A stretch of DNA of 64,000 bases from Longimicrobiales bacterium (GCA_951813395.1 OX638356.1:1095340-1159339), one strand, 5' to 3'. Shown: positions 3,291-55,354, counted from the stretch's first letter. A program made the numbers and translations. Notes: generated by a model from the letters alone, not told the origin.

Positions 3291-5060
3291 ATGGGCGTAT
3301 TTCTTGAGGGCACCCACGGCGGCCGGACGGGACGACGCGCCTTCCTCAGATCGACCGCCCTGGGAGCGGCTGCAGCCGGGCTGGGGGCACGGGAGCTGGC
3401 GGCCGCGTGGGACGCGGGCGGCGCGCCGACACCGGCAATCGGCACCAACCGCACCACCGACGACGAACGCCGGGCCCTGATCGCCGAAGCCCACTTCGGG
3501 CCGAAGACGCCAGCCGCATCGCAGACCGGCATGGCGATCTGCTCGCATCCCCTGGCGACGCGCGAGGCCGTGAAAATCCTCCGCGACGGCGGCAACGCCT
3601 GCGATGCGGCGCTGGCCGCCTCGGTCACGCAAACCGTGGTCGAGCCGCACATGACGGGGATCACCGGCGTATTGAGCATGCTCCACTTCGATGCCGCCAC
3701 GGGCGAGACCACGTACGTGAACGGCGGGGCCAACGCGCCGCTTGCCCCGCTGACCGGGTTCTCGGCCGCCGACATCGCCACCGGCCGCGGCCCGGGCGTG
3801 CCGGGATTCTGGGGCGGGTTCGAGGCCGCGCTCGCGCGTCATGGCACCATGCCCAGGCGGCGGATCATGGAGGGCGCGATCACCTTCGCACGCGACGGCT
3901 TCGAGACGCATCCCTTCCTGTGGGGCGAGCTCTTCGTCATGTGCCACAGGATCGGCATGACCGAGGCCGGGCGCCGCATCTTCATGCCCGACGGCCACAT
4001 CCCGCGCCCCGGCGACCTCCTTGTGCAGTCCGAGGCCGCCGACACCCTCCAGCGCCTCGCCGAGGAGGGCAACGACTACTACTACCACGGCGGTTTCGCG
4101 GAAGAGTACTCCGACGTCGTGCAGAAGGCGGGCGGCGTCATCACGCCCGAGGACTTCGCGCACTATGAAGCCCGCTGGCAGGAGCCGGCGTGGAGCAGCT
4201 ACCGGGGCTACCGGATCGCGGGCTCGCCGCCTCCGGATCACGGCGGTTCGCTCGTGATCGAGATGCTCAACATGATCGAGCTCATGGACCTGCAGACAGA
4301 GGGTCCCCCCAACGAGTCGGCCGAGACGCTCTACCAGATGTCCCGGATCCACAACCTGGTCTACGAGGAGGGCGGCAGGCAGAACGACCCCGACAGCCAT
4401 CCGCTGCCGCTGGACGTGATTCTCTCGAAGGACTACGCGGAAATGCGCTTCAAGCTGTTGCAGATGGGGAGCGCGAACTCCCCGGCACAGCCTCCTCCTC
4501 CGCCCCCGCCTGCGGGGAGCAACCACGTCACGGTCGTAGACGGAGCCGGCAACACGGCCACCATCCTGCACTCGTGCATGTCGCTGCCCTGGAGCAACGG
4601 CCTCTTCGCCGCCGGCGTGACGGTCTGCGCGTCCGGCGCCCACTTCCTGCGCGTCATGCCGCAGCCCGGGCAGCGCGCCACCGCCTACGTCGCGCCGAAC
4701 ATCGTCTTCAACCGTCAGGGCACCCCCATGCTCGCCTCCGGGTCGCCGTCGGTGGGACTGCTGGCCAACATCGTTCAGAACACCACGAACATCATCGACT
4801 TCGGCATCCCGATCGTCGAGTCGGTGCTGAGGCCGCGCTTCGGAGGCCGGTCGCTGGAGGTGCCGGGCTCCACCATGGTCGAGGCGGACGTGGATGCCGA
4901 CGTGATCGAAGCTGTGCGGGGTCGAGGCCACGTGCTCGATGTCGTGAACCCCTGGAACTGGCACCACGGGGCCTTCGAGGGCATCCATATCGACCCGGAC
5001 ACGGGGGTGCGAAGCGCCTGCGGCGACCCGAGAAGGTGCTCGAAGGCGGAGGGGATGTAG
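3291..5060 (+). CDS. Tat-exported gamma-glutamyltranspeptidase family protein with Ser at the nucleophile position
   Basis: 589 aa from ATG 3291, chosen for the GGAGGG ribosome site just upstream and the twin-arginine leader that follows (TGRRAFLRSTALGAAAAGLG). The Ntn-hydrolase family 1019-type fold is clear: DGGNACDAALAASVTQTVVEP near residue 100, GVPGFWGGFE, and a C-terminal half from about residue 410. In the family the precursor cleaves itself before a Thr that becomes the nucleophile (TTHYSVVD in E. coli Ggt). Here the aligned stretch is SNHVTVVD, with Ser410 at the Thr position, preceded by a proline run. The glycine pair of the oxyanion loop (GSPGG) reads GSPSVG. Glutathione or gamma-glutamyl peptide hydrolysis in the periplasm is plausible, but a divergent activity is equally possible. 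Confidence 0.85.
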   Translation: MGVFLEGTHGGRTGRRAFLRSTALGAAAAGLGARELAAAWDAGGAPTPAIGTNRTTDDERRALIAEAHFGPKTPAASQTGMAICSHPLATREAVKILRDGGNACDAALAASVTQTVVEPHMTGITGVLSMLHFDAATGETTYVNGGANAPLAPLTGFSAADIATGRGPGVPGFWGGFEAALARHGTMPRRRIMEGAITFARDGFETHPFLWGELFVMCHRIGMTEAGRRIFMPDGHIPRPGDLLVQSEAADTLQRLAEEGNDYYYHGGFAEEYSDVVQKAGGVITPEDFAHYEARWQEPAWSSYRGYRIAGSPPPDHGGSLVIEMLNMIELMDLQTEGPPNESAETLYQMSRIHNLVYEEGGRQNDPDSHPLPLDVILSKDYAEMRFKLLQMGSANSPAQPPPPPPPAGSNHVTVVDGAGNTATILHSCMSLPWSNGLFAAGVTVCASGAHFLRVMPQPGQRATAYVAPNIVFNRQGTPMLASGSPSVGLLANIVQNTTNIIDFGIPIVESVLRPRFGGRSLEVPGSTMVEADVDADVIEAVRGRGHVLDVVNPWNWHHGAFEGIHIDPDTGVRSACGDPRRCSKAEGM

Positions 5061-5110
5061 GGGGGCGCGAGACTGCGCGCGCGATGGCGCTGATAAGCAT
5101 CCCATGAATC

Positions 5111-5165
5111 GCAGCAAGAAATCGTCCAAAGTCTTCCAGACCGCACGATCTGCCGTTCTCGCCGT
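5111..5165 (+). repeat. Structured hairpin repeat, copy 1
   Basis: An imperfect inverted repeat (arms 5112-5120 and 5156-5164, 7 of 9 paired) encloses a core containing ACCGCACGATCTG. Copies 2 (15.62 kb) and 3 (48.36 kb) share the core but have different, still complementary arms. Homology with copy 3 continues downstream to about 5230. It sits between the gamma-glutamyltranspeptidase gene and the conflict-like cassette. Function unknown; see findings. Confidence 0.6.
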
Positions 5166-5400
5166 GAGGCCGTGACCGGGCCTGTCGTGCGCAAATGGCC
5201 AGAAAACCGGTTCAAATGGCGAGCATTCGCGGACCGTTGACGCTGGGCTTCATTGGGGTACCGGTGCGACGGCATTATGGAGCCGTGCCCTCCACCGGCG
5301 AGAGGCTGTCGGGTATGCGACGTTCTTCGTCGAGCAACCCCGGTTCGTTCGCGGTGCCGAGGTACGTGCCAGCCGCGCGGTGGCGAACTCAGGGCGCTCG

Positions 5401-6659
5401 ATGCTAGACGAAATGGTGGACCGGCTGACGCCGATGCGCTCGTTAGGCTGCTCCTGCGTGAGACGATAGCTCTCGCACGCACCGTCCAGATCGCCAAGCC
5501 AATCCTACCGGCAGTTACCATCACCTCGGGCGCGCTGGCGGGTAAGATTGCCGGGCAGGTATCGCGGGGGCTGGCGCGATTCCGAGAAAACGAATACGTT
5601 TGGTGCGTGAACGGCGATACGCAGGGACCTGTAGGTTCGGATCCGCTCGTCAGGCGGCTGGCCGAAGCCATTGCTTGTGATCGAGCCTCAGCTGTGCTAC
5701 TGGTGGGTGCCCCTGGAATGGGGAAAACTGCCGTTCTGACTGCGGTGGCTGATCTCGTTTCGGAGCGTACTCGGGGTGGAGTCATTTGGATCAGCGGAGG
5801 GGTCGTCGCCAGCGAGGGGCACTTGGCGAAGATGCTCGGCTCTGCGGTTTGCGCCTCCCCCACGGGGCGCTCGCTCAATGCTGTGTGCGATCAACTCGCT
5901 GCCCCCGAAACCCCTCCAGTTCTTCTCGCCATTGACGACTTCGACGATCTGGTCTTCAAGCGTGAGTCCATTGCCAAAGCGGTCACCCGAGCGGTGGCCG
6001 ATGGCAGCAACTCACGGCTTGTCGCTAGTTGTCGGCCAGATGCCAAGGAGCGACTAACCAATCCGGATAAGGCGTTGGGAGCGATTCCGGGCCGCGTGCT
6101 TGTGGAAACGGACCTCTCTCTGTTTGATCCGCAGGCTGCTCGTGCGCTTATCGAGAGGCGGGCGCCACGGTTATCCCCAGCAGCAGCGGAGGCCATAATC
6201 GTCGAGTCGGGCGGTCACCCAGCCGCTCTGGTGTTCCTGAGTCGAATCGCAGGCCTCCGAAATGAACGATCGGACGACGAACTGGAAAACTTCTTCAACC
6301 TAGCGGGGGAATTCGCGGGTGCAGTGTACGCGGAGCCTTGGACGGACCTGGGTCCGCAACAGCGTGCTATCCTCGCGCAGATCGCCCGAACTGGGCGCCC
6401 AATGTCGGCCGTCGAAGTCGCGCGTGTCCTTGAGCTGTCGCCCGGTCATGTAAGCGCCCAGTTGAGCCGCCTCACCGTCTCCGGGCTGGTTTCTCGGACC
6501 CGACCACGCGGCCATCACGTGGTGGCGCCACTGCTTTCTCGCTGGATGAGTCGACGGGCAGCACGGATCGGAAGGCCGTCCAGGGCCTCGACGGGGCAGT
6601 GCGTCCAAAGCCCAGGCTTGGATTACTGGAAGCCTGAACCTAAGAGAGACGGGGCGTAG
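5401..6659 (+). CDS. P-loop (STAND/AAA-like) ATPase with C-terminal winged helix; 5' end probably frameshifted
   Basis: The clear part, from about 5436, has a Walker A (GAPGMGKTA), a Walker B (VLLAIDDFDD), a sensor-like stretch (SRLVASCRPDAKERL) and a C-terminal MarR/ArsR-like winged helix (ILAQIARTGRPMSAVEVARV, LSPGHVSAQLSRLTVSGLVS). The layout is that of signal-transducing ATPases and Orc/Cdc6-type NTPases. No ATG lies in this frame near the start. The ATG at 5401 and about 170 bp before it are in the neighbouring frame with plausible protein (YATFFVEQPRFVRG, MLDEMVDRLTPM). A one-base frameshift near 5435-5445 would join the two. GTG 5607 is a fallback start. It is the first gene of the 5.4-15.6 kb cassette; a gap of 5 bp to the next gene suggests coupling. 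Confidence 0.7.
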
Positions 6660-6664
6660 GTCCG

Positions 6665-8641
6665 TTGGGTCGCTCCTATGCCCGCGAGTTGGCCACACTC
6701 GCTGAGACTTACGCGTCGGCTCAAGTTCTTGACATCTCTTCCCTGACAGAGGTCGTCCAGACTTTCCGCACTCGGCCTCTGGTGGTTGTTGGCTCGGGAG
6801 GTTCTCTCACGGCCGCAAACTTCGTCGCACGACTCCACGAGACCGGTACGCATCTTTCGGCCCGCGTGCTGACTCCTCTTGAGTTTCTCCACAGTCCCAT
6901 GCTCAACGACTCAGGGGTGTTGCTGTTGAGTGCCGGTGGGTCGAACCCCGACATCCTGGCTGCAGCCCACCATGCGGTTAGGTCCGAAGCGGTAACCCTT
7001 GCCGCCGTATCCACTCGTGTTGGCACACCGCTCAGTGCACAGCTGAGCCAGCATCCCTACGCGACAGCGTTCGAGTTCAGCGGGCCCGCATCGAGGGACG
7101 GATTCCTAGCCACGAATTCGCTAGTGTTGACCTGCGCCGCATTGGCTCGGGCATATGATCGAAAGCTACCTGTGGACCTGCCTGCGCTAGCTGAACCCCT
7201 GAAAACGGACCTGCTTGTCCAGTCCCTCCTCCTCCCGCGCACGGTTGTGCTCGCGAGCGGCTGGGCCCTCGCCGCCGCGGTAGACCTCGAATCGAAGTGT
7301 AGCGAGATGGGGTTTGGCTGCGTGACGGTGACCGACGCGCGCAACTTCGCTCACGGACGGCACTATGGGCTCTCGCGCGTCATCGACGAGACCCTGGTGC
7401 TCGGCTTGACCACACCGGCGGAGGCGACGGTGCTTGAGAAAACGCTCGCCAAGCTGCCGGGCACGGCCACGGTTGCCACACTAGACAGCCCCCTACTGGG
7501 TCCGGCTGGATCACTGGACCTAATTGTTCGCGTACTCTCCCTTGCTGGCGCCGTCGGAGCGCACTCCGGTGTGGATCCGGGTCGACCGCGGGTCCCCGCC
7601 TTCGGGCGCGCCCTTTATCGTGCCAAGCTCCCTCGCCAACGCGCACGGGTGCGCGGTGGGGCTCCACCTGAAGATGTGTGGATACAGCGAAAAGTATCCA
7701 CGGCAGTCTGGGCAAATGTGGGGGAGGACACCCGCCGGTCTTGGCGTGTGCGATGCCGAGATTGGGTGGACGCAGTCCAATCTGAACGGGTCGGCGCCGT
7801 CGTCCTTGATTATGACGGGACGCTCTGCGAAGCGAGCGAACGATTTACAGCTCCAGCCAGCCCCGTCGGCGCAGCTTTGACTTCTCTCCTAGATCAGGGC
7901 ATGCGTGTAGGCATCGCCACTGGGAGGGGCAAGTCTATTTCGGAGGCGTTGCGCACCGTGCTGCCGCGCCGACTATGGCGTCAGATACGAGTCGGAATGT
8001 ACAACGGCGGCGTGCTTTTCCGACTCGATGAACGTCCACCTGACGAGGTGCCTCGAGAGCCTGAGGTGGAGCATGCTTACGCGATCCTCGCTGCATCCCC
8101 CGTGCTACAGCGCTTGGCCGACCTTCGCTTGCGTCCCACCCAAGTGACTGCTATGGCTCGAATGCCCTTACCGGACGGGATGCTCCGCCGCTTCGTTGTC
8201 GAGGCGCTGGCCATGGGCCAAGACCTCCCGGCCGTAGATGTATTCGCCTCTGGACATTCGGTTGATGTGATTGTCCGAACGGTCTCAAAGCGGCGGGTGG
8301 TGGAGACACTCCGGCAGGAGATACCAGAGAGGGATGGACTCAACGTGATGACGATTGGCGACCAGGGCCAAGCGGGAGGGAATGACGCCCCCTTCCTTGC
8401 TCACACTTTGGGGCTGAGCGTCGAGAGAGTGTCGAGTTCATTCGACGGCTGTTGGAACATCGCCCCACTTGGGAGTCGTCGGACCTCGGCAATGTTGCAG
8501 TACTTGGCAGCCCTCCGACCAGTTCGGGACCGTGGTTTCCGCTTCTCGATCCGCACCGCCGCAGGACTAGGACGTCAGCGAACCTTGTCCGGCTCTGGTA
8601 TGGGCGCGAGATCACAGACTCACCCCCCGCGTCAGGATTAG
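6665..8641 (+). CDS. SIS-domain / HAD-superfamily hydrolase fusion protein
   Basis: 658 aa from a TTG start 5 bp after the ATPase stop; the first residues MGRSYARELATLAETYA look like a genuine N terminus. Residues about 30-290 are a sugar isomerase (SIS) fold (LVVVGSGGSLTAANFVARL; LLLSAGGSNPDI). Residues about 375-600 are a HAD phosphatase of the Cof type: motif I D382-Y-D384-G-T, a TGRGKS motif II, a conserved K (VSKRRVVE) and motif IV GDQGQAGGND at residue 565 onward. The linker (DPGRPRVPAFGRALYR) keeps the frame, so the fusion looks native. SIS domains bind sugar phosphates and HAD domains remove phosphates. A role in making or removing a sugar-phosphate or nucleotide is inferred from the neighbours (PRTase, PfkB kinase). 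Confidence 0.8.
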   Translation: MGRSYARELATLAETYASAQVLDISSLTEVVQTFRTRPLVVVGSGGSLTAANFVARLHETGTHLSARVLTPLEFLHSPMLNDSGVLLLSAGGSNPDILAAAHHAVRSEAVTLAAVSTRVGTPLSAQLSQHPYATAFEFSGPASRDGFLATNSLVLTCAALARAYDRKLPVDLPALAEPLKTDLLVQSLLLPRTVVLASGWALAAAVDLESKCSEMGFGCVTVTDARNFAHGRHYGLSRVIDETLVLGLTTPAEATVLEKTLAKLPGTATVATLDSPLLGPAGSLDLIVRVLSLAGAVGAHSGVDPGRPRVPAFGRALYRAKLPRQRARVRGGAPPEDVWIQRKVSTAVWANVGEDTRRSWRVRCRDWVDAVQSERVGAVVLDYDGTLCEASERFTAPASPVGAALTSLLDQGMRVGIATGRGKSISEALRTVLPRRLWRQIRVGMYNGGVLFRLDERPPDEVPREPEVEHAYAILAASPVLQRLADLRLRPTQVTAMARMPLPDGMLRRFVVEALAMGQDLPAVDVFASGHSVDVIVRTVSKRRVVETLRQEIPERDGLNVMTIGDQGQAGGNDAPFLAHTLGLSVERVSSSFDGCWNIAPLGSRRTSAMLQYLAALRPVRDRGFRFSIRTAAGLGRQRTLSGSGMGARSQTHPPRQD

Positions 8642-48116: not shown

Positions 48117-48182
48117 ACGTCGTTCGATCCCCATATTGCGGGCGGACCCGTACACGCGCCCTTCCCAGGAGGCTTTCCGGTC

Positions 48183-48253
48183 ATGTACCCGCGCCACCGC
48201 CCCCCGCTCCATGCAGCCCGTGGACAGAATCCCCCCGGCATTCGAACGGCGAT
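48183..48253 (+). pseudogene. Displaced 5' end of the LVIVD-repeat gene
   Basis: ATG 48183 follows AGGAGG (48167-48172) at 10 bp. The frame reads MYPRHRPPLHAARGQNPPGI followed by RTA, and its last 41 bp are identical to 53312-53352, where the same frame continues into the signal peptide and body of the LVIVD protein. Joining 48253 to 53353 keeps the frame exactly. On the left the frame runs into element DNA and stops at 48380. Confidence 0.75.
48213..48253 (+). repeat. 41-bp direct repeat, left copy (probable attL)
   Basis: From GCAGCCCGTGGACAGAATCC to GCGAT, identical over 41 bp to 53312-53352. It lies within the first codons of the interrupted LVIVD gene; the integrase gene ends about 150 bp from the other copy. 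Confidence 0.75.
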
Positions 48254-48362
48254 GCATCCGGGCCGGACCGCTTCGCTCTGCGTTGCTCCTTGGGCCCGTA
48301 GCGCTGCTACTGGCCCTTCGTCGCGCCTTGCCGGCCCGGCAGAGCGCCTGAGGTCTGAATCC

Positions 48363-48416
48363 CGGCAGAAAATCGTCTAAAGTCAACCAGGACTGCACGA
48401 TCTGGGTTTTCTGCCG
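48363..48416 (+). repeat. Structured hairpin repeat, copy 3
   Basis: Perfect arms CGGCAGAAAA (48363-48372) and TTTTCTGCCG (48407-48416) enclose CAACCAGGACTGCACGATCT. It is 110 bp inside the left end of the integrative element. Similarity with copy 1 extends about 70 bp further downstream (GAGAAAAC, TTCAATGGCG). Confidence 0.65.
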
Positions 48417-48419
48417 TAG

Positions 48420-49193
48420 TACGGGACTTGGCTACATCGTGCCTTGGAAGCGAGAAAACGTACTTCAATGGCGGGAAGGTTCTCTGATCTGATCTGAGCC
48501 CTTTACCGCGATGAGTCCCCCCGAATCCCGTAGGCACTGCACCAGGACATTGTCTCGCCATCCGACAGAAGGACTTGGCAGTCTCTGAGGGCTTTTGGAT
48601 CGAGCCCAGTAGCGGGTGCCGGCGCGCGCCGACCACACACCGCCCCGTTGCCGCGCATGTGAGCCATGCCGTGGAGCGCGGGGGAGCCGATGTGAGCATC
48701 GGCATTGAGCGCGCGCGGAGCCCGCCGTAGTAGCCCGCGCCGCCGGACTCGCTGCGGAACCCTTGTGCGGATCCGTCGGCCCAGAGTCCGAACATTGGCC
48801 GTTCATCCGGGGATTGCGGTCCGAGGCCGGTGGCGAACGAGACGCTTGGCAGCAGGCGCTGGCCGGCCTCGCGCCCGATGGTCAGTTCGACCGCTCTGGA
48901 GTCGCGGCCGATGTCGGCGCGCGAGCAAGGGGGGCCGGAGTGTCGGTGAGCGGGGTTGCGGGCCGGGCGGTGAATCCGATCCCACTCCGCGGCAGATCCG
49001 GGCGCGGGAGTGCCGGAGCCGCCCGGCTTCGGTCGGCCGTGACTGGTTTGTCGAACCGGGTGCCTGCGCCCGCGATGGTCTTCCGCGAGTCCTCTTCCTG
49101 TTGACACCGGGCAGTTTGCCGTTATGGTACCCGCGCCCTACCTCAAGGGCATTCCACCATCATCCCCACTCAACACACAGAAAGAGGTTCTCA
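48420..49193. other. Gene-poor stretch of the integrative element
   Basis: No convincing gene in about 770 bp. The reverse strand has a long open frame (to about 49107) with phrases such as LLPSVSFATGLGPQSPDERP and GGAGYYGGLRARSMP. I cannot match it to a family, and it has the composition of a GC-rich chance frame or a decayed outer-membrane gene. Confidence 0.4.
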
Positions 49194-49505
49194 ATGATCC
49201 AACGACTCGCGCTTGTTGCTCTGGCCGGGGTCGCAACCGTTGGGCTGGTTGTCGTTCCCGCAGTGGCGAGCCATTCCGATGCCGTATCGGCATCCGCAGT
49301 GATCGCTGACCGGAATGAGTCGGATCTGCCACCAGTCGTCATGGTCACACCGGATAGCGAAGATCCGATGGCCCCGGGTACGGTCGAAATCGTTCCGGGT
49401 GCTGGGTGCTGTCCGAAGTACGATCCGCGTTTCGACTGCTGGCAGGACGGCCACTGGCACGACAATCACTGCAAGAGCTGTGCGCCCCCGCCGCCGGGCC
49501 TGTGA
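49194..49505 (+). CDS. Small exported cysteine-rich peptide
   Basis: 103 aa from ATG 49194 after AAAGAGG. Signal peptide LALVALAGVATVGLVVVPAV. The mature part is acidic and then has five cysteines clustered at the end (GCCPKYDPRFDCWQDGHWHD, NHCKSCAPPPPGL). No family recognised. It is followed within 50 bp by a beta-propeller gene, repeating the peptide-plus-propeller pattern at 26.6-28.8 kb. Confidence 0.65.
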   Translation: MIQRLALVALAGVATVGLVVVPAVASHSDAVSASAVIADRNESDLPPVVMVTPDSEDPMAPGTVEIVPGAGCCPKYDPRFDCWQDGHWHDNHCKSCAPPPPGL

Positions 49506-49552
49506 CCGCGTTGGTCATGATCCCCACCCTTCGGATCTCCCGAGTCTGTCTG

Positions 49553-50749
49553 ATGCGACGGCATCATCGAATCGCCGCAGGTCTCGGGTTCACTATAGCC
49601 ATCACCTGCGCGCCCGATGTGGGCGCGCAGGTGATGCGGGATAGCTCAGGTGTCCACGTTGTGGAAAATGGCTCGCCAGCAACCCTGCCAACTTTTGTAG
49701 TCAAGGACGACCATGTCGTTCAGATGGGTGTTGCCGACTCTGCTTCGGACGGGACGGGCGGCCAGGAGTTCCTTGACCCACGCGCCATCGTTTTCCTTTC
49801 AAGGGGAGGCATCGCTGTTGCCGACCGAGGGACGGCCGAGATACGTCTCTTCGATGACGATGGCAAACCGTTGGCGGAGTTCGGTGGCAGGGGAATGGGG
49901 CCACGGGAATTCCAGGATCTCAGTTGGATTGGGGAGTGCCGAAAGGGATCCTTGGATGCCTATGACGCCCGCTTGGGGCGGGTAAGCACCATTGTGATCA
50001 ACGATCTGAGTTTGGCTTCCACGAGAGACATCCGATCCGTTGCCCGTGGTACGCCGCCGACCGACCTCCGGTGCGTTGAAGGTGGATGGGTCGCAATCGT
50101 GCAGCATCTCGGGATGCCTCCAGCTTCCTCCGGACCAATTAGATGGCCGGTGACGATTGAGTTTCACGGGGCGGCGACCGAACCAACGGCACTGTTGGAG
50201 GTCAGCGGCGACGAGTTGTATTTCAACCAGGGCGAGCTAGGCCCGCTAGCTCTGGGCCGCCGCACCGTTGTCGCGACTTCGACCAAGCTGATCGCGTTGG
50301 GAACCCAAGACGCCTCCCTTCTGAATTTGCACTCCGCAGCGGGGGAATTGATTGCATCCATTCGGTGGATGGACGTAGACCGGAGGGTTTCTGGGGAGGA
50401 TCTGGCCCAGTACACTGAATCGTGGGTGTCTTCAGCGCGCTCGGAATCGGCAGCACAGCACGTTCGCGAGCTTGCTCGCGACTACCCATTCCCAGTGGTC
50501 TTCCCTGCGTTCGGCGAAGTTGTTTTTGACGACTCGGGAGAACTCTGGATCGAGTCCGCGCCGACAGTGGGGCGTACGCAAAACGCGTGGATCGCTTTCG
50601 GGTCAGACGGCGTGATGAAGGCTGCCGTGGTGTTCCCTCGTGCTTTTCGACTGATGGCCATTGATCTTTCGCGCCGTCGAGTTGCGGGCGTGTGGCGCGA
50701 TTCGCTTGGCGTCCAGAGCATCCGGGTGTTCCAGTTGGAGGGTGGCTGA
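49553..50749 (+). CDS. Exported 6-bladed beta-propeller protein
   Basis: 398 aa from ATG 49553; an in-frame ATG at 49517, 12 bp after the peptide gene, is an alternative. Signal peptide HHRIAAGLGFTIAITCAPDV. Propeller strands: LDPRAIVFLSRGGIAVADRG, TAEIRLFDDDGKPLAEFGGR, GMGPREFQDLSWIGECRKGS, GELWIESAPTVGRTQNAWIA. It lacks the lipobox cysteine of the 26.6-kb relative. Cargo of the integrative element, coupled to the Cys-rich peptide. Confidence 0.75.
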   Translation: MRRHHRIAAGLGFTIAITCAPDVGAQVMRDSSGVHVVENGSPATLPTFVVKDDHVVQMGVADSASDGTGGQEFLDPRAIVFLSRGGIAVADRGTAEIRLFDDDGKPLAEFGGRGMGPREFQDLSWIGECRKGSLDAYDARLGRVSTIVINDLSLASTRDIRSVARGTPPTDLRCVEGGWVAIVQHLGMPPASSGPIRWPVTIEFHGAATEPTALLEVSGDELYFNQGELGPLALGRRTVVATSTKLIALGTQDASLLNLHSAAGELIASIRWMDVDRRVSGEDLAQYTESWVSSARSESAAQHVRELARDYPFPVVFPAFGEVVFDDSGELWIESAPTVGRTQNAWIAFGSDGVMKAAVVFPRAFRLMAIDLSRRRVAGVWRDSLGVQSIRVFQLEGG

Positions 50750-51553
50750 ACACCTTCACGCTTGGTCGGCCCGTTTCCGGGCTCCCGTTTGAACGGGTTC
50801 TCCGAAGAGTTCGCGGGGGTGCTCCGCCACCGCAGTGGCGGCGGCCAACGATGGTTGTCCGGACACGGTCGCCGACGGGCTTGTCGGACGCCTGTTTGGG
50901 CGGGGAGCCAGCATACTCCCCGTGGCCACACTGCGTGCGTTCCCGAGGGAGGCTGGCGGGGGGGCCGTGCCCCCTCTGACCCCCGGTTTTCCGCCCCGCC
51001 GCAGGAGCGGTGGGCGGCGGTGTGGTCCACCCCCCGAACCCCGTCGCCGCGACCGAGCGCTGCCCCGTCGTGCCCGACGCTCCGGCCGACGTGATCCTCG
51101 ATGGACCGGCCAGCCGGAAGCTTGGTCGTGACGGGCGGGGGCGCGAGGATCCGCCCGTAGGAGTCTCTGGCCGACTGGGTGGCCCTTTGCCCTGGTAGAG
51201 CCCGGAAAACCGCTCTCACGGCGATTCTCCGCGTTCTTTGGGGTGATCGGGCGGAATCCGAGGCCGCAGAATCGCCTGTAACGCACGAACTAGACCCCCG
51301 GAGGGGTAGGAGTACCCCCGATTTTCGGCTTCCGCAGGACAAAACAGCGATGTCTTGGCGCTGGAGGATCGAGCCCGAGAAACGGATGGAGGCGCGCAAT
51401 CCGTTCCCGGAAGGGTGTCGAGCGCCGCTTCGAGGCGGCGGAGGACGTGTCGGCCGACCGGTTGACCGCCGGGCTGTCCGGCATCGCCGGCCAAGACCGG
51501 GACGCGCCCCGTCAGGGCTCGCCGTTTGGCCTTCCCGCAAGGGACTGCTGGCC

Positions 51554-51641
51554 CGGAGCGACCCGCCGCGGAGGTTGGGATGGAGTGCACATCCCAACCT
51601 CCGCAGATGCCACAACAGGCATCGAAAAAGGTGGGTCGCTC
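51554..51641. ncRNA. Candidate structured RNA or DNA: three nested stems
   Basis: Outer stem CGGAGCGACCC (51554-51564) pairs with GGGTCGCTCCG (51631-51641). Inside are a perfect 14-bp stem, 51568-51581 with 51591-51604 (GCGGAGGTTGGGAT and its complement), and a 6-bp stem GATGCC...GGCATC. Together they would fold as a three-way junction. A further stem (CCACGGCCTCCGG with CCGGAGACCGTGG, one mismatch) follows. Seen directly; function unknown. Confidence 0.4.
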
Positions 51642-51960
51642 CGACCACGGCCTCCGGTTCCGGCGCGGCGCAGCCGCCCCGGAGACCGTGGTACAACCAC
51701 AATCCGGCCAACGACATGCGCGGTCGCCGACATGCACGTCCGAACCGGGAATTCGCGCACATAGGGGGTCTGTTTCACATGTGCGGCCCTCGCACGGCAC
51801 CGGACGCGCGTCCCGAGTCCGACCAACCGTCTCCCCAGACGTTCGTGCGCGCCAGGCTCCATCCGATCCCCGATCATGCGCCTGAACCGTTGGGATCGGG
51901 ACGAACCGGACCTGTTGGATGACCTGCCACTGGTCAAACATCACCTCGCAGGCGACCTTT

Positions 51961-51994
51961 CTTTCGCGCAGATCGTGCAGTCCATCTTCGAAAG
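51961..51994 (-). repeat. Possible inverted partial copy of the hairpin repeat (copy 4)
   Basis: CAGATCGTGCAGTCC at 51969-51983 is the exact reverse complement of part of the copy 3 core, flanked by short complementary arms CTTTCG and CGAAAG. It lies 8 bp before the integrase start. Fifteen bases could be partly chance, so this is tentative. Confidence 0.35.
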
Positions 51995-52001
51995 GAATCG
52001 A

Positions 52002-53162
52002 ATGATGGCACGCACGAAACGAAGTCGGCGCTCTTACGGCGCCGGCGAGTGGGGCCGGAACCGGGTCAGAATCTTTCCCGACCCGAAGACCGGCCTCTTC
52101 CAGATTGAGTGGCGAGAGAACGGCAGAAGGCTCACCCGGTCGCTGCAACACCGCGATTGGAGGCGCGCGAAACGGCAGGCGGATCAGTTCGCCGCAGGCT
52201 TCATCGACGCGCCGAACGGCAAGGCCGACGCCAAGCCCGAGCCGCTGACGCTGGAAAAGCTGTTTGAAATCTACGGAGAGGAGGTGACGCCCACCAAGGG
52301 CGCGCATACACGGGGGCACGACCGGGCCGCCATGCACATGTTCCTCCGGCTCTTCGGACGGAACCGCGACCCGGCCACCCTGTCCCAAAGAGATTGGGAC
52401 CGCTTCATCCGGGAGCGGCGCGCGGGCAGGATCGGACCGAGCGGAAGGCCCGTATCCGACCGGACGGTCGAATACGACCTGAAGTTGCTGATCGCCGTCC
52501 TGAATTGGGCGGCGAAGTCGCGAGACGAGCGGGGCCGGTTGTTGCTCGACCGGAATCCGCTGAAGGGGCTCAGGACGCCCAGCGAGAAGAACCCGAAACG
52601 CGTGGTGCTGGCCGAGGAGGAATACCGGGCGCTTCGGGCGGTGTCGCGCAAGGTGGACTGGCGGTTCCGCGTCGCGCTGGTGCTCGCGCACGAAACGGGG
52701 CACCGGATCGGCGCAATCCGCCAGCTTCGGTGGCTCGACATCGATTTCGAGGGCGGGACCATCCTCTGGCGTGCCGAGCACGACAAGTCCGGGTACGAGC
52801 ACATCACGCCCGTTACCGACGAGGCACTCGACGCGTTGAAGGAGGTTCTGGCGATGAACCCCGGAACCGGGGATGCCCCGGTGCTGCCCGCGCCCAAGAA
52901 TCCGAGGGCGGCTGTGGGTGCCGCCCGGTTGCACGCTTGGTGGCAGAAGGCCCAGATTCTTGCAGGACTGGAGCCGAAGCCCGGAAGGGGCTGGCACTCG
53001 CTGCGGCGGAAGTTCGCGAGCGACCTGATGGACCAGCCGCTGAAGGTGCTCTGCCAACTCGGCGGGTGGAAGACGGCCAAGACGGTGCTTCGGTGCTATC
53101 AGAGGGCCGATGAGGGACAGCTTCGGAAGGCTCTGGAAGACCGCCGCCGGGCTCGGAGCTGA
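52002..53162 (+). CDS. Tyrosine recombinase/integrase
   Basis: 386 aa from ATG 52002 after AAAGGA. N-terminal arm-type DNA-binding region (residues 20-70, FQIEWRENGRRLTRSLQHRD), SAM-like core-binding domain (about 80-190) and catalytic domain. Active residues: R235 in HETGHRIGAIRQL, K262 in HDKSGYEHI, H332 and R335 in GWHSLRRKFAS, W356 in LGGWKTAKTV and Y366 in RCYQRADE. All are present, so it is probably active. It lies 150 bp from the right 41-bp repeat, its likely attachment site. Confidence 0.92.
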   Translation: MMARTKRSRRSYGAGEWGRNRVRIFPDPKTGLFQIEWRENGRRLTRSLQHRDWRRAKRQADQFAAGFIDAPNGKADAKPEPLTLEKLFEIYGEEVTPTKGAHTRGHDRAAMHMFLRLFGRNRDPATLSQRDWDRFIRERRAGRIGPSGRPVSDRTVEYDLKLLIAVLNWAAKSRDERGRLLLDRNPLKGLRTPSEKNPKRVVLAEEEYRALRAVSRKVDWRFRVALVLAHETGHRIGAIRQLRWLDIDFEGGTILWRAEHDKSGYEHITPVTDEALDALKEVLAMNPGTGDAPVLPAPKNPRAAVGAARLHAWWQKAQILAGLEPKPGRGWHSLRRKFASDLMDQPLKVLCQLGGWKTAKTVLRCYQRADEGQLRKALEDRRRARS

Positions 53163-53209
53163 AATCGGGAACGGCGGGAGTCATTCAGCGGGAATCCGGG
53201 CTGCCGAAG

Positions 53210-55354
53210 ATGCAACTACAAGCACCGCAAGAAGATGCGAATCTACACGGAAATGCCGGCCCGGCGCCTCGCCGCTCTCGGTGCTCGGGCGGCTCTGTCC
53301 ACGGACTGCTGGCAGCCCGTGGACAGAATCCCCCCGGCATTCGAACGGCGATCCACGGCCTGCTTGCCCTGGCCGCGCTCTTCCTGCTTCCGGGCGCACC
53401 CGTCGTTGCCCAGACCGCGTGGCGGATCGAAGCCGACGCCCCCAGCCTGGTGATCGCGCGGGGTGAAAGCGCCACCCTGGCGGTCCGGGTACTGGACGGA
53501 GATGGACAGGCGGTGGACGAGGCGGTGCGGATCGTCGGCTCGCGGCGCGCCCTGTCCATTGACGGCGGTGTCGTCATGGGACTGGAAGTCGGGGAGTGGG
53601 AGGTCATCGTCACGACGGCGAGACCGGGTCCGGACGGCCGTCCCGCCCAGCTCGCCGTGCCCGTCGTGGTGGAGTGGCCGCCCGTCGTGCGGGTCGAGGT
53701 GACGGGCCCGCGCGCCCTCTACGAGGGCACAACGGTGACCCATCGAGCCATTGCGCTGCACGGCGACGGCACGAACCGACCCGGCGCGGGCTTCGAGTGG
53801 CGGACCAGCGATCCCGCCCGGGCCGATGTGGACGGGTTCGGGCACGTGCGGGCCCTCGCCCCGGGCCCCGTGCGGATCGAGGCCGCGTTCGAGGGAGTGA
53901 CGGGCGCGGTGGAGCACTCCGTGCGGGAATTCGCGGGGGCCTCGCTGGAGATCGCGGGTGGCGCGGGCGGGCCCGTTCGCACCGGGGACGTGCAGACTTT
54001 CGCCGCGACCGTGCGTGACGCGGGCGGCGCGGTGATCGAGGATGCGCCCGTGGAGTGGAGCCACTCGTACGTGCCGGCGGTGGGGATCGTGGCGCCGGCC
54101 GCCCCGGGACAGATGGAGGACGGGCGCATCGTGGCCGACGTCCCGGGCGAATTCACCGTGTTGGCGCGGTCGGGAGGGCTGAGGGCGACCCGCACCTTCG
54201 AGGCCGTGCAGCGGGAGGTGGTGCGCGCGGTCGAGGTGGTGGGGCGGGGAAACCAGGAAAGGGTGTACAGCACCGATTTCTGGGTATTCGAGGGCGTGGA
54301 TGGACGCGACTACGCCCTGGTCGGGTCGAAGCAGTCCGACGGCCACGGGTTCGTCTTCGACATCACCGATCCCGAGAACGTCGTCAAGACCGATTCGGTA
54401 CAGGTGGATGCCCGTTCCGTCAATGACATCAAGGTCTCTCCCGACGGACGCTACGCCTCGCTGACCCGCGAGGGCGCCTCGGACCGTCGCAACGGCGTGG
54501 TGATCCTGGACCTGGCCGACCCCGCCCACCCCGTGATCGCCGCCGAATACACGGAGGGGCTCACCGGGGGCGTGCACAACGCCTTCCCAACCAACGACTA
54601 CCTCTTCGCCCTGTCCAACGGCGACAAGTACGTGATTCTGGACATCCGGGACATCTACAATCCCACATACGTCTCCGAGTACGATCACCCGAACAGCCGG
54701 GTGCACGACGTGTGGGTCCACGACGGGATCGCGTATTCGGCCGAATGGGGCACGGGACTGGTTGTGGTCGACGTGGGCAACGGGCGCTGGGGCGGTACGA
54801 TCGACGCGCCCGTATTCGTCTCCAGCTATCCGGTGCCGACGGGGGCGACGCATGCGGCGTTCCCGTACTGGTCGGAGTCGGCGGGGAAGTTCTACGTCTT
54901 CATCGGCGACGAGATCCTGAACCGCGAGGGCATGGCCTGGGAGGGTGCGGGGCCCGACTTCCGCCAGAAGTACGATCCCGAGACCGGTCGTGGCGGGTAT
55001 CCGCGCGCGAGCTGGGGCTATATCCAGGTCATCGACTTCGACGACCCCGGAAACCCCCGGATGGTGGCCCGCTACGAGGTCTCGGAGTTCGGTACGCACA
55101 ACATCTGGGTGGAGGACGACATCCTCTACCAGGCGTACTACGAGGGCGGCATGCGCCTCGTGGATGTCTCGGGGGAGCTCATGGGGAATCTGTACACGCA
55201 GGGGCGCGAGGTCTCCGTCTACAAGGCGTTCGACCCGCTGGGGTTCGTCCCCAACTCGCCGGGTGCGTGGAGCGTGATGCCCCACCGTGACCTGGTCTGG
55301 TTTGCCGACATCAACTCGGGGCTGTGGGCGTTGAGGCTGTCGGAATCGCCGTAG
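53210..55354 (+). CDS. Exported LVIVD-repeat protein with Ig-like domains; N terminus replaced by integration
   Basis: 714 aa if started at the element-derived ATG 53210. The original start is at 48183. The signal peptide (HGLLALAALFLLPGAPVVAQ) now lies about 48 residues inside the frame, and no ATG, GTG or TTG sits between the repeat and the signal, so export may be impaired. After it come bacterial Ig-like domains (residues 70-340) and a propeller of LVIVD repeats: GVVILDLADPAHPVIAAEYT, KYVILDIRDIYNPTYVSEYD, WGYIQVIDFDDPGNPRMVAR, GGMRLVDVSGELMG. Cell-surface or periplasmic; function unknown. Confidence 0.82.
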   Translation: MQLQAPQEDANLHGNAGPAPRRSRCSGGSVHGLLAARGQNPPGIRTAIHGLLALAALFLLPGAPVVAQTAWRIEADAPSLVIARGESATLAVRVLDGDGQAVDEAVRIVGSRRALSIDGGVVMGLEVGEWEVIVTTARPGPDGRPAQLAVPVVVEWPPVVRVEVTGPRALYEGTTVTHRAIALHGDGTNRPGAGFEWRTSDPARADVDGFGHVRALAPGPVRIEAAFEGVTGAVEHSVREFAGASLEIAGGAGGPVRTGDVQTFAATVRDAGGAVIEDAPVEWSHSYVPAVGIVAPAAPGQMEDGRIVADVPGEFTVLARSGGLRATRTFEAVQREVVRAVEVVGRGNQERVYSTDFWVFEGVDGRDYALVGSKQSDGHGFVFDITDPENVVKTDSVQVDARSVNDIKVSPDGRYASLTREGASDRRNGVVILDLADPAHPVIAAEYTEGLTGGVHNAFPTNDYLFALSNGDKYVILDIRDIYNPTYVSEYDHPNSRVHDVWVHDGIAYSAEWGTGLVVVDVGNGRWGGTIDAPVFVSSYPVPTGATHAAFPYWSESAGKFYVFIGDEILNREGMAWEGAGPDFRQKYDPETGRGGYPRASWGYIQVIDFDDPGNPRMVARYEVSEFGTHNIWVEDDILYQAYYEGGMRLVDVSGELMGNLYTQGREVSVYKAFDPLGFVPNSPGAWSVMPHRDLVWFADINSGLWALRLSESP
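53312..53352 (+). repeat. 41-bp direct repeat, right copy (probable attR)
   Basis: Identical to 48213-48253. Here it is part of an 11-bp-arm palindrome (TCTGTCCACGG 53294-53304 with CCGTGGACAGA 53317-53327) that is absent at the left copy, so the other arm comes from the element side. Confidence 0.75.

Follow-up and report, generated by a model that had tools for sequence, protein, structure and literature searches.

A tyrosine-recombinase integrative element at the centre of a dispersed palindromic repeat separates an LVIVD gene from its start in a sponge-associated Longimicrobiales bacterium

We analysed a stretch of 64,000 nucleotides from the sponge-associated Longimicrobiales bacterium (GCA_951813395.1, OX638356.1:1095340-1159339), hereafter the window, which lies within a single-contig genome of 4.09 Mb, and concentrated on positions 48,183 to 55,354, where an integrative element with a tyrosine recombinase stands between an LVIVD gene and its start. 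Comparison of sequences makes it very probable that the locus arose by two nested insertions, that of a dispersed repeat first and that of the integrative element second. At the first step, a palindromic repeat resembling miniature inverted-repeat transposable elements (MITEs), together with a shortened second copy, would have entered the LVIVD gene after about codon 9 and left the frame open. At the second, the 4.9-kb element would have been integrated by the tyrosine recombinase that it encodes at the near-palindromic core of repeat copy 1, an event that would have duplicated 12 bp and separated the gene from its start. Elements of this clade would find in the dispersed repeat an attachment site that exists in many copies and can be entered in both orientations, so that elements accumulate in one genome. 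The comparison set included 23 genomes of the genus to which the name Candidatus Palauibacter (Gemmatimonadota) is applied; repeat copies were sampled across genomes, and the counts given below are samples, not exhaustive whole-genome totals.

An earlier note, made from the sequence of the window, had described a 5.1-kb element with 41-bp attachment repeats. The features of the locus, all on the plus strand, are placed by us as follows.

48168 to 48209: AGGAGG ribosome-binding site, followed by the 9 codons (MYPRHRPPL) with which the LVIVD gene originally began and which are now severed from its body; from comparison with G019 and G006
48213 to 48340: left half of repeat copy 1 (repeat positions 1-128), the first 41 bp of which are the left repeat of the earlier note; from alignment
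48329 to 48340: left 12-bp core TGCCGGCCCGGC, the true attachment core; exactly duplicated at 53254-53265 and at the same position in other elements
48341 to 53265: integrative element, 4,925 bp with one core copy included; its removal leaves a complete repeat
51876 to 53162: tyrosine recombinase (integrase), the conserved part starting near 51996; from PF00589 and catalytic motifs
53173 to 53196: two direct 10-bp repeats, GGCGGGAGTC and AGCGGGAATC, 14 bp apart and 3' of the integrase; in the same place in nearly all relatives
53210 to 53212: ATG in frame with the LVIVD body, within element DNA, a possible substitute start; from the sequence
53254 to 53265: right 12-bp core TGCCGGCCCGGC, exact duplicate of the left core
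53266 to 53309: right part of repeat copy 1, after the core; from alignment
53312 to 53363: repeat copy 2, reduced to 52 bp by internal deletion, the first 41 bp of which are the right repeat of the earlier note; its ends match short copies L122, L112 and L119
53364 to 55354: rest of the LVIVD gene, with the core of the signal peptide and the body; from PF08309 and alignment to relatives

When 48341-53265 is removed, 173 bp remain, and these match empty repeats of another genome, G022, over the full length. All five distinct pairs of left and right repeat ends lying more than 300 bp apart in the loci compared (the window, G022, G008, G012 and an SB0664 metagenome-assembled genome (MAG)) enclose an integrase, 85-100% identical to that of the window. 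In each of these five complete elements the repeat is interrupted between its left and right halves at one and the same position, whether the form is short or long, and the core is duplicated over 12 bp in the window and three other elements and over 10 bp in the fifth. Other elements occupy this core in the opposite orientation, among them a second one in the window's genome (L097/L137); both orientations presumably arise because GCCGG-C-CCGGC, the core sequence, forms an odd palindrome. Two hallmarks of tyrosine-recombinase elements, namely core copies in direct repeat at the two ends and a corresponding empty site, the latter for the G012 element described below, were both found, and the direct repeats GGCGGGAGTC and AGCGGGAATC are likely arm-type binding sites. 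A tyrosine-recombinase element does part the start of the LVIVD gene from its body, as had been proposed; its size is 4,925 bp, with a 12-bp core inside the repeat as boundary, and not 5.1 kb.

Empty and occupied states were found at orthologous loci. At the first locus, the 247-bp repeat is occupied by an element in G012 and empty in G010, and G008 has the right flank with the repeat absent. The repeats of G010 and G012 are 98.4% identical over 247 bp, ungapped, and their flanks (left, 95% over 321 bp; right, 93.5% over 600 bp) reach the repeat at the same base. At the second locus, G008 possesses repeat and element and G011, with a 98% identical flank, neither. Read from the sequences in this way, comparison between genomes establishes the boundaries, core, target and orientation of the element, its empty site and the order of events.

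The body of the LVIVD protein matches PF08309 (E 8.7e-9 in a profile search). Its original start, AGGAGG followed by ATG 48183, is present as the earlier note had stated, and the uninterrupted gene that it proposed to look for in relatives exists in G006 and G019, in both with an N terminus of the 48183 type. In G019, CCAGGAGG..ATG opens a gene in which MQPRHRPPP is joined to the body (protein start MQPRHRPPPLALAAPVALVLLL..AQTAWR), and in G006 MQPRPRHRPPL is joined to it (protein start MQPRPRHRPPLVALAARAAGTLIPLF..AQTASR). The upstream region of G019 matches that of the window (89% over 725 bp), and the PadR gene upstream is collinear. Repeat and element are both absent from the LVIVD gene of G006 and G019, the locus having been compared in both, and these genomes hold repeats 98% identical to those of the window at other loci. 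On sequence grounds, the 48183-type start is ancestral and the repeats came later. Since the genes of G006 and G019 are uninterrupted, repeat-free and begin with this start, the LVIVD gene of the window appears to have taken two successive hits.

These coordinates also bear on what excision would do. With the element removed, the reading frame opened at ATG 48183 continues across the two repeats and on into LVIVD uninterrupted by stop codons, and coordinate arithmetic gives an in-frame insertion of 76 codons relative to the original gene. A cut at the true core leaves both repeat copies in place; excision would consequently give a repeat-lengthened open frame and not, as had been suggested, the ancestral gene. 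Furthermore, the bases 53353-53363, formerly taken as gene, are the right arm of repeat copy 2, CCACGGCCTGC (11 bases).

The repeat is widely dispersed. A search with its right end returned matches in 23/23 genomes of the genus, 36 of them in the window's own genome at E <=0.01 and 44 there at a looser cut-off, and the repeat was present beyond the genus in 52 of 117 sampled genomes of the order. Because the repeat end recurs dozens of times in the genome and in every genome of the genus, the 41-bp repeat stands far above chance. The left end, GCAGCCCGTGGACA..ATTCGAACGGCGATGCATCCGGG, and the right end, ..CTCTCGGTGCTCGGGCGGCTTTGTCCACGGACTGC, are imperfect inverted repeats of each other, with GCAGYCCGTGGAYAAA in common plus further inverted similarity, and are spaced 170-172 bp (short form) or 246-247 bp (long form) apart, the repeat as a whole measuring 171-173 or 247 bp. 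Copies occur singly or in head-to-tail arrays, the latter in G022; there, loci L143, L147, L148 and L149 show arrays of, for example, five 171-bp or three 249-bp units, with 0-2 bp between units. The long form (247 bp; L147, L149) is the short form plus an AT-rich insert of ~75 bp with a palindromic core, GTAAATGATAATTTACATTATGTCATG.., which is perhaps a regulator-binding site. No Rfam match was obtained for four loci that contain either arrays of the repeat or a copy occupied by an element.

In several respects the repeat resembles MITEs: it is short and non-coding, has imperfect terminal inverted repeats of ~45-50 bp, occurs in many copies and has TA at many insertion points. TA was found on both sides of several isolated copies and at 53 of 150 non-tandem repeat ends; many copies are unmatched between sides, and the window copy has AT and TT. 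At the second of the orthologous loci described above, G011 reads TCCTAG where G008 reads TCTTA-[GCAG..CTGC]-TAG; the repeat insertion duplicated TA, and the stop codon was remade using the repeat's own first G. That repeats always lie at stop codons is only partly supported: frames of at least 200 codons ended at 23 of the 53 TA flanks, a modest excess over control frames (16/53). The repeat departs from MITEs in its inconsistent target duplication and its tandem arrays; nor was a cognate transposase, in an autonomous relative with the same ends, found among IS630-type genes (PF13358), the only transposase family searched. PF13358 genes occur in 7 of 23 genomes, and the ends of both multicopy types in G000 differ from the repeat ends. 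These two near-identical IS630-type insertion sequences (L238-L261; at least seven and at least four copies) lie at CTAG and are rare or absent in most sister genomes.

The integrase matches PF00589 (E 2.6e-17) with the catalytic motifs R, K, H-x-x-R, W and Y all present, and its reading frame ends 150 bp before the right 41-bp copy, as earlier recorded. Relatives were found in every genome of the genus, with 4 to 54 matches per genome. Among 79 public relatives, 17 have the right half of the repeat directly at their 3' end and 8 have the left half there, inverted. In the integrase tree, for which the label of six rows was set by eye from the core sequence or the upstream half, the repeat-abutting label clusters (3 changes vs 10.2 for shuffled labels; 0 of 500 shuffles as clustered), and integrases lying in repeats make up 24 of 26 in the clade of the window and 5 of 5 in a second, separate clade. 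More distant relatives end beside tRNA genes (L055, L057, L059, L100) and others at different short palindromes, e.g. GTCCG-C-CGGAC.

The following observations concern the same family. The full-length integrase of L100 and the truncated one of L101 (G000:C1:2465118 and 2444855, ~20 kb apart) have the same right end at a tRNA gene, which suggests tandem islands. One clade, L179-L200, has a conserved GGAAGATGCGAATTCAC at the right end of the element, in some copies in frame into downstream DNA, and this could be a ribosome-binding site with start codon. Most of the public genomes with integrase relatives are MAGs of Gemmatimonadota, and one of these bears the name Candidatus Palauibacter. Transfer across phyla, at first considered from NCBI titles reading Gammaproteobacteria (carried by L170 and L182), was dropped, as at least two such MAGs belong by GTDB kinship to the family of the window: contigs and match coordinates are common to G104 and G116 on the one hand and G024 and G023 on the other. 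Other titles carry the labels Acidobacteria and Binatia. Public titles are misleading as to host range.

Three points weigh against the proposed two-step insertion. The repeat-only intermediate was not seen at the LVIVD locus, where the compared G006 and G019 are sister species and not the same species. Most integrases that fall in neither of the two clades use different cores, so that repeat targeting is not family-wide. Finally, excision, the circle and recombinase activity rest on what tyrosine recombinases do: the recombinase would presumably catalyse integration through a circular intermediate, and the element may still be mobile.

We regard as possible, if doubtful, that the element is dead and LVIVD a mere disrupted pseudogene. 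The start is 5 kb distant, and several integrase fragments in the window's genome reveal that such elements decay. On the other side, the body is a single open frame of 714 codons and the integrase is intact. The ratio of non-synonymous to synonymous substitution rates (dN/dS) of the body is 0.086 relative to G006, and dN to the outgroup G001 (0.097 for the window, 0.093 for G006) is not raised; such purifying selection fits recent insertion and continued use alike, dN/dS being silent on the date of insertion.

An integron-like system, in which the repeat would be an attC-like cassette site and the integrase would move repeats and build their tandem arrays, appears improbable. The two systems have in common palindromic sites, head-to-tail arrays and a tyrosine recombinase, the repeats here being strongly palindromic and frequently preceded by a TAG stop. 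The recombinase of the window is, however, no integron integrase (14 bits against the model TIGR02249, cut-off 265) and the exchange takes place at the internal core instead of the repeat ends; moreover, the repeat of G008 with TA on each side, facing one TAG at the empty site of G011, is the pattern of a transposed unit.

Attachment at the 41-bp repeats, with excision restoring the gene and the start at 53210 switching export, retains very little credibility. In its favour, the two copies are exact (48213-48253 and 53312-53352; 44 bp at 98%) and each stands in frame with the coding sequence beside it, relatives with an intact gene show the left-type start, and homologous recombination between the 41-mers could remove 5,099 bp in frame. 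Each 41-mer is, however, the left end of a repeat copy, the two copies being neighbours, and this repeat occurs dozens of times per genome, mostly without integrase; the 41-mers are missing from the relatives' intact gene, and every complete copy of the element has its boundary at the internal core. An ATG does exist in frame at 53210, the sole one noticed ahead of the signal-peptide core, and its ribosome-binding site is unconvincing, which makes it only a possible substitute start; the export switch is unsupported, none of the compared genomes showing switching. An assembly artefact joining repeats, conceivable for multicopy sequences, can be practically dismissed, given one 4.09-Mb contig, upstream collinearity with G019 and the same architecture in genomes of separate projects.

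Apart from the integrase, the cargo varies from element to element. Two further predicted genes of the window element, both on the plus strand, are as follows.

49194 to 49505: small predicted secreted cysteine-containing protein, 103 aa; from prediction of open reading frames
49517 to 50749: predicted secreted beta-propeller-like protein, 410 aa; from weak PF17170/NHL scores and a BLASTP link

The 103-aa protein had no match in Pfam or NCBIfam. Proteins resembling secreted six-bladed beta-propellers (PF17170) are encoded by 10 of the 11 elements inspected (the window, L157, L160, L166, L176, L177, L189, L191, L203 and L212; L169 lacks such a gene), with the qualification that some of them, that of the window among them, score only weakly in Pfam and were linked by BLASTP comparison of the cargo proteins. 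In the window, the 410-aa protein is linked to the cargo protein of L166 (BLASTP E 4e-8), which resembles proteins above the PF17170 cut-off. The propeller-like genes are divergent, and a small cysteine-containing protein adjoins them in three elements (the window, L177 and L203), a pairing that looks like a variable cargo class. Against a background of 63-123 PF17170 matches in each of these genomes, enrichment of propellers in the elements is likely. No relaxase or coupling protein was recognised among the reading frames of the window element. L191 has at 4061-7345 a type IV coupling protein (TrwB/TraD-type) and a winged-helix-like protein, with closely similar frames in the same region of L189 and L212; for this one repeat-targeting clade the two proteins suggest conjugal transfer.

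Among known systems, the closest in working is that of the Neisseria filamentous phage Nf1/MDA at dRS3, where likewise a small dispersed repeat with inverted ends serves as a many-copy attachment site, the Nf1-type dRS3 numbering 269-327 per meningococcal genome (PMC3898611). As there, integrations were found here at one position of a dispersed repeat; dRS3 is, however, 20 bp long, whereas the target here is the centre of a palindromic repeat of 171-247 bp. The Neisseria phage enzyme belongs to a family other than the tyrosine recombinases, to which the enzyme found here belongs, and phage genes were not seen in the window element. In our analysis the likeness is one of working and not of descent. 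With tyrosine-recombinase integrative elements and genomic islands, the element has in common a terminal integrase beside the attachment site, direct core repeats and variable cargo, and differs in targeting a dispersed repeat instead of one tRNA or protein gene and in having up to 54 integrase matches per genome. The window element further showed no recognisable mobilization gene, in which it differs from integrative and mobilizable elements. No description of a tyrosine integrase that targets a MITE-like repeat emerged from the literature, subscription papers lying outside our coverage, and the words integrase, transpos-, recombinase and repeat are all absent from the Palauibacterales paper.

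By the features examined, the element is a tyrosine-recombinase integrative element; unusual is its target, a dispersed repeat that serves as a multicopy attB. A corrected trap should also be mentioned, namely that repeats flanking an integrase are not necessarily its attachment sites. One may further imagine a long-lived partnership, in which the repeat, restoring the stop codon on landing at TAG, would offer neutral landing pads from which the elements stock the genome with a diversifying array of secreted propeller and small cysteine-rich proteins, and would in this way set their copy number and cargo repertoire, a proposal that we consider rather unlikely as it stands. Empty, repeat-only and occupied loci offer a ready system for shifts of integrase specificity between tRNA genes, short GC palindromes and the repeat centre. 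Whereas the usual integrative elements depend on one or few attachment sites, this clade has a genus-wide repeat with dozens of sites per genome, usable in either orientation, and therefore many integrase copies can share one chromosome.

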